The position numbers and the translations under genes were made by a program. A stretch of DNA of 64,000 bases from positions 310,001 to 374,000 of the forward strand of contig NZ_CP043430.1 of the NCBI RefSeq assembly GCF_008271365.1, written 5' to 3'. Below the pieces are notes generated by a model. That model ran no database searches, was not told the DNA's origin, and was given only the letters and a program-made list of their open reading frames with translations. Below, piece after piece: positions 2,614-4,850 of the stretch (position 1 is the first letter of the stretch; the number at the start of each line of letters is the position of its first letter). The DNA is from Microbacterium sp. 1S1 (lineage in GTDB: Bacteria > Actinomycetota > Actinomycetes > Actinomycetales > Microbacteriaceae).

Positions 2614-2764
2614 GGCCGGAGACAGATTCGCGACCGCGGGCGCGGGAGTTCAAGAAGCCAGAAAGATCGCGCCCGCGATCGCAGCGCTGGGGACGCTTTA
2701 TCTGGGGAGCCTTCAGGATATGTCGGCGCGGCGGAGGCGCTGAAGTGCCGAATGTCGAGACGCT

Positions 2765-2782
2765 CGTAGACTTTCGTCTACG
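2765..2782. terminator. Hairpin between convergent genes
   Basis: CGTAGAC and GTCTACG form a perfect 7-bp stem with a TTTC loop, between the GntR gene (ends 2613) and the convergent histidine kinase (ends 2828). There is no T tract. A 12-bp perfect palindrome GTCGATATCGAC follows at 2790-2801. The rest of 2614-2827 shows no gene. Confidence 0.4.
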
Positions 2783-2827: not shown

Positions 2828-3970
2828 TCACACCACCGGCAACACCGCGGAGACGAGCCAGGAGCCCTCCACCTCTCCGGCGCTGAACTCGCCGCTGGCT
2901 CCCATGACGCGCTCCGCCATGCGCCCCAGTCCGGTCCGGCTGGACGACAGCTCACGACGGGGCGTCGTCGGCAGCGGGCTGCGGAGGGACAGGTGGGCTT
3001 TGTCGTCGTCGACCGTGAGACGGATCTCGACGGTGCCGGGGCCGGCGTACTTCAACACATTCGTTGCCGACTCCCGCACGATGCGCGCGAGGACGATCTC
3101 GACCGCTCGTGGGATCCGCTCGTCGCCGGGGTCACCGTCGACGATCACGGTGTGCCCGGCGGCCTCGAACTCGGTCTGCGCTTCCTCGACCGCAGCGATG
3201 AGGTCGCCGGTCGGCATACCCGCAGCGCGCGGTCCGTCGTCGGCGAGGTCGATCACGAAGCGGAGGTCGGTCATGGCCTTGCGGGCGGCGACGCGGATCG
3301 CCTCCCGGGAGCCATCGCTGGTTTCGGGGTCTTCGAGCATCTGCACGTGCAACGACACCACCGTGAGGTGGTGCGCGATGCTGTCGTGCAACTCGCCGGC
3401 GATCCATCGTCGCTCGGCGAGGACGGCTTCCTTCTCCTGCTCAGCCGCAGCCTCCAGCTGACGTTCGAGCCTGCTGCCGCGGGCGAACGCCACTCGAAGG
3501 GCGAAGCCCACGGCACCGGACACGGCAGCGAAGACCAGGAAGAGCGCCACGTTGACGCCGGAGCCACCGTCACCGAAAGCGACGAGGGCGGCGGCGACGA
3601 GAAAGGCACCGGTGTACGACAGGATCAACGCGGTCCACCCGAGTCGCATGACCAGCCCGGCCGCGACAGCGGCGGCGGTCAGGACCTGGGATTCGGTTCC
3701 TGCCAAGAAAGAGAGTGCGAACACGACGCCGAGGGCGCATGTCGCGATAAGGGGTTTCCAGAGGTAGAGGGCGAAGACGGCCGATGACGCGATGCTCACC
3801 AGCACGGCCGCCGGGTTCGCACCCGGGGCGACGATGAGTCCGATCACGTCGACGGCGACGGGGATGGAGATGATCACCAGAACGACGATGCGTTCGACGG
3901 CGGTGAGCTTCTCGCCTCGACCGAGCCGGAGCGAATCCGCGGAACCGCGGATCGAATGGTCGAAGGCCAT
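2828..3970 (-). CDS. DesK/NarX-like sensor histidine kinase
   Basis: Membrane sensor kinase of 380 residues. Residues about 25-160 form several hydrophobic segments, followed by a short coiled region (RLERQLEAAAEQEKEAV). The HisKA_3 dimerisation segment has ELHDSIAHHLT, with phosphoacceptor His near 195. The C-terminal ATPase domain is divergent: an N-box (RESATNVLKYA) and a G-box-like GLGRMAERV are visible, but the usual DNG is not obvious. The ATG at 3970 has AGGAG upstream. It follows a 15-codon peptide gene by 29 bases and probably shares its transcript. The likely partner is the divergent NarL-type regulator at 4197. The stimulus is unknown; the peptide is a candidate. Confidence 0.93.
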   Translation of the reverse strand: MAFDHSIRGSADSLRLGRGEKLTAVERIVVLVIISIPVAVDVIGLIVAPGANPAAVLVSIASSAVFALYLWKPLIATCALGVVFALSFLAGTESQVLTAAAVAAGLVMRLGWTALILSYTGAFLVAAALVAFGDGGSGVNVALFLVFAAVSGAVGFALRVAFARGSRLERQLEAAAEQEKEAVLAERRWIAGELHDSIAHHLTVVSLHVQMLEDPETSDGSREAIRVAARKAMTDLRFVIDLADDGPRAAGMPTGDLIAAVEEAQTEFEAAGHTVIVDGDPGDERIPRAVEIVLARIVRESATNVLKYAGPGTVEIRLTVDDDKAHLSLRSPLPTTPRRELSSSRTGLGRMAERVMGASGEFSAGEVEGSWLVSAVLPVV

Positions 3971-3999
3971 GGTTCACTATCTCCTATTCGCCAGGTACT

Positions 4000-4047
4000 C
4001 TAGCGGACGAGACCAAAGAACTTGCCAACCTGCTGCCAGAAAGTCAT
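4000..4047 (-). CDS. 15-residue peptide gene upstream of the sensor kinase
   Basis: Translates as MTFWQQVGKFFGLVR followed by TAG. A near-perfect Shine-Dalgarno GGAGGTGA (4053-4060) lies 5 bases before the ATG, stronger than the kinase's own. The stop is 29 bases upstream of the kinase start on the same strand. The peptide is amphipathic and aromatic, net positive (K9, R15), with no cysteine and no signal peptide. It could be a secreted or membrane-active signal sensed by the kinase, a phenol-soluble-modulin-like peptide, or a leader peptide that couples translation to the kinase. I recognise no named family. Its existence as a translated unit is well supported by the ribosome binding site; its function is not. 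Confidence 0.65.
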   Translation of the reverse strand: MTFWQQVGKFFGLVR

Positions 4048-4133
4048 TACATTCACCTCCGATTTAGTGCCGTTTGTCGATGTCTGTATTCATCTTCTCG
4101 GCGGCGCGCGGAGCGCACATCTGGCCTTCGTCC

Positions 4134-4155
4134 AGACCTCGATAGCCAAAGGTCT
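4134..4155. promoter_or_regulatory. Inverted repeat upstream of the response regulator
   Basis: AGACCT (4134-4139) and AGGTCT (4150-4155) form a perfect 6-bp dyad with 10-base spacing, 42 bases before the regulator start and inside the spacer shared with the peptide/kinase unit. Size and position suit a NarL/LuxR-type dimer site. Binding is inferred. Confidence 0.4.
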
Positions 4156-4196
4156 ACATCCTCAGAGCGCCTGCTTCACGCGGTTAGGCTTCCTCC

Positions 4197-4850
4197 ATGC
4201 AGGAAATCCGCGTCGTGATCGTCGATGACGATCCTCTGGTCCGCTCCGCGTTGTCGCACTTCGTGTCGCGCGCGCCCGAGATCACCGTCGTGGCGCAGGC
4301 GGAGGACGGCGCGGAGGCCCTCACGACTGTCGAGCGCGAGAAGCCGGACGTCGTCATGATGGACGTTCAGATGCCCGAGATGGACGGCATCGCGGCCACC
4401 GCAGCGATCGCCGAGCGCTGGCCCGACGTCCGGGTGCTCGCCGTGACGACGCTGGACGGCAGCGACACCGTGCTCCCCATGCTGAGCGCGGGCGCATCCG
4501 GTTATCTGCTCAAGGACTCCAGTGCGGAGGAGATCGTCACCGGCGTGCGCGAGGTGTTCGCCGGCGCCAGTTCCCTGTCGCCGCGCATCGCCTCGATGCT
4601 GATCCGCCACGTGCGCGACTCGACTCCTGCCGCCGCCACCGAACCCCTCGAACCGCTCACCGAGCGAGAGGAAGAAGTGCTTCAGTGCCTCGCGAAGGGC
4701 ATGTCGAATGCCGAGATCGCCAAGGCGCTCATCGTGTCGGAGGGCACCGTGAAGGCCCACCTCGGCCGCATGATGTCGAAGTGGCACCTGCGGGACCGCG
4801 TCCAGATCCTCGTCACGGCGGCGCACGCGGGTCTCGTCACCTTCCGTTGA
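4197..4850 (+). CDS. NarL/FixJ-family response regulator
   Basis: Receiver plus LuxR-type DNA-binding protein of 217 residues. The receiver has the acidic cluster VDDDP at 10-12, phospho-acceptor Asp56 in MMDVQMPEMDG, a Thr in VTTLDG and Lys in YLLKDSS. The C-terminal helix-turn-helix begins LTEREEEVLQCLAKGMSNAEIA and continues with SEGTVKAHLGRMMSKW. Divergent from the peptide-kinase unit, with which it should form a two-component system. The start ATG 4197 is preceded by a weak CTTCCTCC-type context, so a short or absent leader is possible. Confidence 0.95.
   Translation: MQEIRVVIVDDDPLVRSALSHFVSRAPEITVVAQAEDGAEALTTVEREKPDVVMMDVQMPEMDGIAATAAIAERWPDVRVLAVTTLDGSDTVLPMLSAGASGYLLKDSSAEEIVTGVREVFAGASSLSPRIASMLIRHVRDSTPAAATEPLEPLTEREEEVLQCLAKGMSNAEIAKALIVSEGTVKAHLGRMMSKWHLRDRVQILVTAAHAGLVTFR

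Follow-up and report, generated by a model that had tools for sequence, protein, structure and literature searches.

A conserved short peptide gene, a DesK-type sensor kinase and a candidate small RNA in a putative autoregulated module of Microbacterium

Introduction

In staphylococci, the agr locus brings together a peptide (AgrD), a kinase (AgrC), a regulator (AgrA) and an RNA (RNAIII). Two-component systems may also act through small RNAs, as GacS/GacA does through RsmY and RsmZ with their GGA loops, and small peptides such as MgrB and SafA act on sensor kinases. Actinobacteria possess the 6C RNA (RF01066), which has C-rich loops. To our knowledge, little has been described of peptide signalling or of target-binding small RNAs in non-model actinobacteria. 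Genes as short as the one described here are, as far as we know, usually missed by annotation, and for this reason the peptide and RNA families presented below would both be new.

According to one source, a UCCC motif binds the targets of RNAIII, RsaE, SprD and FsrA, Gac is said to act ‘exclusively’, and LisRK of Listeria is needed for LhrC, an RNA in which UCCC motifs occupy loops as well as an unpaired region, while LisR controls a series of other genes too (PMC4132741). In another, the short hydrophobic peptide Dcr acts directly on the kinase PmrB (PMC7790251).

Here we compare these systems with a locus of Microbacterium sp. 1S1, found in a window of 64 kb, i.e., the whole stretch of DNA analysed (C1:310001-374000, from a genome of 3.40 Mb). 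Within approximately 2.2 kb, the locus combines a two-component system with what may be its own signal and its only output. It resembles agr in that it gathers the genes for a peptide, a membrane kinase and a regulator in one place, with a promoter that is probably autoregulated and an RNA containing C-rich motifs. For a co-regulated effector RNA such as that of agr, what is seen here is a predicted operator and a structured RNA. However, the kinase is of the HisKA_3/DesK type and the regulator of the GerE type rather than of the AgrC/AgrA (LytTR) type, the peptide is cysteine-free and has no leader, and no third gene recurs among 17 loci; the likeness is one of logic and does not imply homology to agr. 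With GacS/GacA it shares a two-component system with a small-RNA output, here a candidate one, but the loops here are C-rich, the kinase architecture differs and a peptide is added. Dcr, UgtL, MgrB and SafA resemble the present peptide in that a short peptide acts on a sensor kinase, as is proposed here, whereas the present peptide is natural, has only 13-15 residues, which is short for a membrane helix, and is encoded beside the kinase with which it co-varies. LisRK/LhrC likewise couples a two-component system to a UCCC-motif RNA, but LisR has further targets, no peptide is mentioned in the available part of the source (PMC4132741), and the RNA described here has no Rfam match in the stretches scanned. 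No report of the peptide, the module or the RNA was found in the open-licence PMC literature.

Materials and methods

The genus alignment comprised the locus of strain 1S1 and 29 of the other 33 orthologue loci. For the wider comparison, genome contigs were scanned and the best 80 of 122 candidate loci were considered, 64 of which (L066-L129; 48-94% identity) were taken as orthologues; the remaining sixteen (L130-L145), which match only from residue 115 onward and at no more than 36% identity, were left out. Loci L066-L129 and L006-L034 overlap partly in genomes. Three divergent kinases (G009, G053 and G055) were excluded from the orthologue counts.

Of 65 stretches of 400 nt behind the kinase, 52 were folded first and the other 13, which fell outside the rule, were folded separately; RNAalifold was run on an alignment (A2) of 29 chosen sequences. 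For the analysis of co-variation, peptide distances were compared with those of two parts of the kinase, its membrane part and its core, in 62 of 65 loci, leaving out L128 (peptide missed by the rule), L126 (kinase split) and L127 (short match).

Results and discussion

Sensor kinase and response regulator

The locus encodes a sensor histidine kinase (2828..3970, minus strand) with six predicted membrane helices and a DesK-related HisKA_3 core. PF07730 matched at 38.8 bits (cut-off 24) and DesK chains were the best matches over the core; the kinase is of the DesK type in that it combines a HisKA_3 dimerisation domain with a DesK-like core. Its structure model (pLDDT 72.7, pTM 0.41) contains six predicted helices, including those at residues 53-68, 73-90 and 93-110. 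The divergent gene on the plus strand (4197..4850) encodes a NarL/LuxR-type response regulator with Response_reg and GerE domains, and a related regulator was found in 30/30 genus loci as well as in 17/17 loci of a neighbourhood survey. Leaving aside the kinase, the regulator and any frames that overlap with these two, genes of at least 100 aa were each present in no more than four of these 17 loci, and no exporter, processing or immunity gene recurred nearby. Identity with MadRS was rejected, as the NCBIfam equivalogs scored far below their cut-offs (regulator 155.6 bits against 300, kinase 38.3 bits against 500).

Peptide gene and its conservation

On the minus strand, the ribosome binding site GGAGGTGA (4060-4053) precedes an ATG at 4047, which opens a 15-codon frame encoding MTFWQQVGKFFGLVR; the frame ends with TAG (gene 4000..4047 including the stop), and 29 nt then separate it from the kinase ATG at 3970. 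A single match to GGAGGTGA-N4-8-ATG in the 64-kb window, with 0.10 expected, is not striking on its own, since 10 of 100 shuffles also gave at least one.

It is the conservation of the frame that makes the case. With a threshold of E 1e-60, the kinase was matched in 38/149 genomes of the genus, comprising 34 full-length orthologues including that of strain 1S1 (61-100% identity), one damaged copy (G034) and the three divergent kinases (42-44%). A peptide frame of 13-15 codons occupied the same place in 30/30 aligned genus loci, and across the wider set it lay upstream of the kinase in 64/64 orthologue loci (the rule caught 61, L108 and L125 were recognised by eye, and L128 has an array). The preliminary description had set the retention of a short frame and its ribosome binding site upstream of orthologous kinases as the check to be made, and both were retained, with GGAGGTGA itself in 43 loci and close variants of it in the remaining 21. 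Among the 64 scored peptides, F3 is present in 61, W4 in 63 and G12 in 62, with lengths of 15 (55 peptides), 14 (seven) and 13 residues (two). The ratio pN/pS was 0.48 across 47 distinct 15-codon peptide genes, consistent with conservation at the amino-acid level over seven actinobacterial groups. Judged by this conservation, the 15-codon frame is a genuine gene, equipped with a strong ribosome binding site and tied to the kinase, as had been supposed.

Other parts of the earlier account fared less well. The nearest named locus among the best 80 of 122 belongs to Microbacterium (kinase 94%), yet the peptide is not limited to Microbacteriaceae, because records among those 80 under the names Actinomyces, Propionibacterium, Ruaniaceae, Ancrocorticia and Tessaracoccus also carry the peptide, alongside those of Microbacterium and Leucobacter; several of these records are metagenome bins. 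Nor does the peptide bear out its description as amphipathic, which is unproven because the helical moment exceeded that of 95% of shuffles in only 3/45 distinct peptides, that of strain 1S1 not being one of them. About 20% of shuffles matched or exceeded the moment of the strain 1S1 peptide, and a helix like that of the phenol-soluble modulins was rejected on this ground. The peptide contains no signal sequence.

Operators and promoters

A candidate operator lies before the peptide gene (4130..4156, minus strand), consisting of site A TAGACCTTTGGCTA, a gap of 6 nt and site B TCTGGAC. A second candidate with the same A-6-B layout and no mismatches lies between the kinase stop and the RNA described below (2754..2780, minus strand), and both would be bound by the response regulator. 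The consensus reads TAGAC-N4-GNCYA for site A, followed by TCTSGAC for site B. The form TRGAC-N4-GNCYA was found upstream in 57/64 loci, with TCTGGAC 6 nt further in the genome of strain 1S1, which supports the earlier proposal that a site for the regulator, able to close the loop, may plausibly lie in the spacer. The perfect AGACCT/AGGTCT dyad that had been named as this site does exist in strain 1S1, but it recurs in only 21/64 loci (spacer 9-11) and was rejected as the operator.

The two operators were the only good A+B matches in the genome of strain 1S1, where six further matches with three mismatches compare with 11 in a reversed control. Perfect matches in the 149 genomes numbered 18, from 13 genomes, and all lay at the peptide-kinase locus; with one mismatch allowed, the locus was matched in 20/35 module genomes. 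A wider regulon was rejected, as no perfect match was found elsewhere and single-mismatch matches elsewhere occurred at about the frequency of the reversed control. Two single-mismatch words do recur away from the locus, one shared by G128 and G144 and the other, with nearly the same letters, by G062, G116 and G139.

Presumed -10 boxes follow both operators. Before the peptide, GAGAAGAT (4092..4099, minus strand), a conserved word that would form the weak -10 of the peptide and kinase promoter, or a word like it, stands at a distance of 57 nt, counted from where site A starts, in 44/53 loci. Behind the kinase, the corresponding distance to a -10-like box is 60-61 nt in 35/45 loci, and in strain 1S1 TATCCT (2715..2720, minus strand) is, by this spacing, the presumed -10 of the RNA promoter. 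The response-regulator transcript seems to be leaderless, the presumed -10 TAGGCT (4185..4190, plus strand) ending six bases before the ATG of its gene (4185-4199); such a box was counted in 63/64 loci, which is weak support because the pattern is loose.

A candidate regulatory RNA downstream of the kinase

The second operator and the RNA that follows it were absent from the preliminary description. The putative RNA (2623..2713, minus strand), which has UCCCCAG motifs, carries CCCCAG both unpaired and in loops and then a long terminator-like stem, and its fold lies 3.8 sd below shuffles. Between the second operator and the convergent GntR gene there is no fitting minus-strand gene, and no short frame with a ribosome binding site was found within the RNA in 53 loci. 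From its arrangement, the module appears to activate a small regulatory RNA of its own.

CCCCAG was present in 56/65 stretches behind the kinase. Most of the 52 stretches folded first formed a GCG/CGC stem capped by a CCCCA loop, together with a long closing stem, although a few have a different best fold (L099, L112 and L123 among them). By eye, L110, L113, L117, L118, L121, L126 and L128 have an RNA of similar layout with different letters, and in six distant loci (L116, L120, L122, L124, L125 and L127) no clear RNA was seen in the folds. One to three CCCCA hairpins were found in 54/65 loci, and CCCCA was enclosed by a stem of at least five pairs in 68/146 cases behind the kinase, as against 84/1020 elsewhere in the same loci. 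The small hairpins are supported in that the stems around CCCCA differ yet pair (AGCG/CGCT, GGCG/CGCC, AGCA/TGCT, GACG/CGTC and GTGGA/TCCAC). RNAalifold gave 16 pairs, five of which, all within the long stem, changed on both sides.

The RNA model R1 scored at least 42.8 bits in 35/149 genomes, i.e., the 34 with a full-length kinase and G034, at one place each and beside the kinase, some of these matches arising by construction because the genomes concerned supplied R1 sequences. Elsewhere it gave only weak matches (31 bits or less) in nine genomes, and 105 genomes were without any; no RNA was found by R1 in the three divergent genomes. No Rfam family was found in the stretches scanned. Identity with the 6C RNA was rejected, with no match to RF01066 at the gathering score in these stretches or in the genome of strain 1S1. 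One stretch (L102:4059-4178) resembles the Guanidine-I riboswitch at 41.5 bits, below the Rfam cut-off of 63. As to targets, CTGGGGA-N4-11-ATG occurred at approximately 9.0 per Mb in 10 module genomes and 7.8 per Mb in eight without the module, and targets defined by CTGGGGA before ATG were dropped for want of clear enrichment.

Co-variation of the peptide with the kinase

With the kinase core and the regulator held constant, peptide distances correlated with those of the kinase sensor across 62 loci (partial r 0.43; 0/2000 permutations as high), the correlation being 0.46 by rank and 0.58 among 456 close pairs. On the 52 loci with a recognised RNA stem the same partial r was 0.58, compared with 0.25 for the RNA and 0.28 for the leader DNA as controls. 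Permutation counts overstate significance here, because the sequences are related, and since both controls also beat all 1000 permutations it is the size of the difference that counts. The peptide against the kinase core, with sensor and regulator held constant, gave -0.09 (52 loci), and these values suggest that the peptide co-varies with the membrane domain of the kinase more than with its core. By windows, values were highest at kinase residues 51-120 (0.24 to 0.42, best at 61-80), with 0.25-0.29 at residues 11-60 and 0.25-0.27 in two core windows (291-310 and 321-340). Contact mapping from single columns was abandoned as not clean, the best columns including core residues 337, 338 and 226.

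Proposed circuit and alternative explanations

At the level of sequence comparison, the peptide, the operators and the RNA are conserved and occur together, and the peptide is most likely, on these grounds, a dedicated ligand or accessory of the kinase in an autoregulated loop with RNA output. We consider it reasonably probable that the peptide, the six-helix DesK-type kinase, the NarL-type regulator and the small RNA make up one autoregulated four-part module. The peptide would be produced in quantity from its near-ideal ribosome binding site and, as linkage and co-variation suggest, would act on the membrane domain of the adjacent kinase, serving as its dedicated ligand or as a small accessory subunit; it might do so from the membrane or cytoplasmic side or, once released, as an autoinducer. 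The phosphorylated regulator would bind sites A and B at two promoters, that of the peptide and kinase, which would provide feedback, and that of the small RNA behind the kinase. The CCCCAG of the RNA, placed in loops and unpaired stretches, may then pair with G-rich targets, ribosome binding sites for instance, a step proposed from the anatomy of the RNA and by analogy with known UCCC-motif RNAs; given such pairing, the output would be post-transcriptional. This would amount to peptide-linked two-component signalling with RNA output, built from unrelated parts and similar in logic to agr, Gac/Rsm and LisRK/LhrC.

A more far-reaching reading, which we hold only tentatively and think rather doubtful, is that of an undescribed actinobacterial form of cell-cell signalling, in which a leaderless peptide of 13-15 residues leaves the cell without a dedicated transporter and acts through a six-helix DesK-type kinase to drive a dedicated C-loop small RNA, which reprogrammes translation, like agr and RNAIII but with unrelated parts. 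A secreted autoinducer lacks a route here, because there is no recurrent exporter or processing gene, no signal sequence and no AgrB match, although the search for the last (PF04647 at E 0.01 in the genome of strain 1S1) also found nothing above the cut-off in any of 14 control genomes.

Whether the short frame matters as a product or as a leader can be judged from its copies and its spacing. A single copy 29-32 nt before the kinase is the usual state (52/64 loci) and the spacer is well kept within the genus, as would suit a cis-acting leader whose translation, through stalling or coupling, sets the expression of the kinase while the peptide itself is inert. In the divergent relatives, moreover, a peptide ending IW-x-x-LC-x-LLGLCS precedes the kinase (3/3; L276, L274 and L275 for G009, G053 and G055) and is separated from it by a strong terminator-like GC hairpin, as an attenuator would be. 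The coupling leader that the preliminary description had offered as one option is nevertheless unlikely, because of these same hairpins, because gaps range from 19 to 104 nt (starts extrapolated) and because the peptide gene is found in tandem arrays. In an uncultured Leucobacter MAG, whose kinase has no clear RNA behind it, five tandem 100-bp units each code for the identical peptide MTFWNALAYFLGFR (L116:5448-5945), and in Tessaracoccus caeni an array of peptide-like frames lies approximately 0.5-1 kb upstream of the kinase, with one unit interrupted by an N run (L128:1050-1900); this array also includes degenerate copies and one frame that seemingly starts with TTG. A leader or attenuator in single copy and fixed place was rejected on these arrays and variable gaps, and the constraint on the amino acids (pN/pS 0.48) and the lack of an association between peptide and leader DNA when the kinase is controlled for (-0.02) also speak against it. 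A cis leader with an inert peptide is thus probably not the explanation, and we regard it as quite improbable. Arrays, variable gaps and linkage to the kinase are, as far as the compared loci tell, the behaviour of a product belonging to the kinase. Such a product might instead be a secreted or membrane-active effector, modulin-like or bacteriocin-like, made by the circuit while the kinase senses membrane damage or senses the peptide indirectly. Its aromatic, hydrophobic and short sequence, its tandem amplification and the probable feedback operator ahead of it would fit, but the helical moment of most peptides does not exceed that of shuffles, genes for export or immunity do not recur, and the peptide sequence is tied to the kinase sensor, so that we think an effector unlikely.

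Two further explanations concern the RNA. A short hydrophobic peptide, found in arrays and beside a structured RNA, recalls a type I toxin silenced by a small RNA; however, the RNA lies behind the kinase and is not antisense to the peptide, strict linkage to a kinase would be unexpected, and pairing between the C-rich part of the RNA and the peptide leader did not surpass that of shuffles (12 loci, z -1.4 to +0.9, the stretch taken from L081 being much longer than intended). We judge a toxin of this kind very improbable. The stretch behind the kinase might also be a terminator with repeat-like hairpins, which would reduce the module to peptide, kinase and regulator. The long stem scores on the opposite strand too, a T run ends the stretch in a few relatives (L100 and L104) and the changes on both sides are confined to this stem, all of which a terminator would explain. 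It would not account for an operator and a -10-like box ahead at near-fixed spacing, for CCCCA kept in loops while the stems differ yet pair, or for the presence of the stretch together with the kinase in 35/35 genomes, and we give it a low probability.

Distribution of the module

The kinase is patchily spread, with matches in 2/249 genomes of the family (at 1e-50), both belonging to the genus, and in 7/396 genomes of the order (at 1e-75), and none on plasmids at 1e-40. A search with the peptide pattern gave hits in 37/149 genus genomes and none with the reversed control, although it missed the orthologues in G075, G128 and G144, whose peptides are seen at their loci. In 32 of the 37 genomes the peptide adjoins the kinase (31 orthologues and G034), and the other five share one unrelated-looking sequence. 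In G034 (L065) the peptide and kinase frames look damaged, and possibly that of the regulator also, through decay or assembly errors, while the operator and the RNA are kept.
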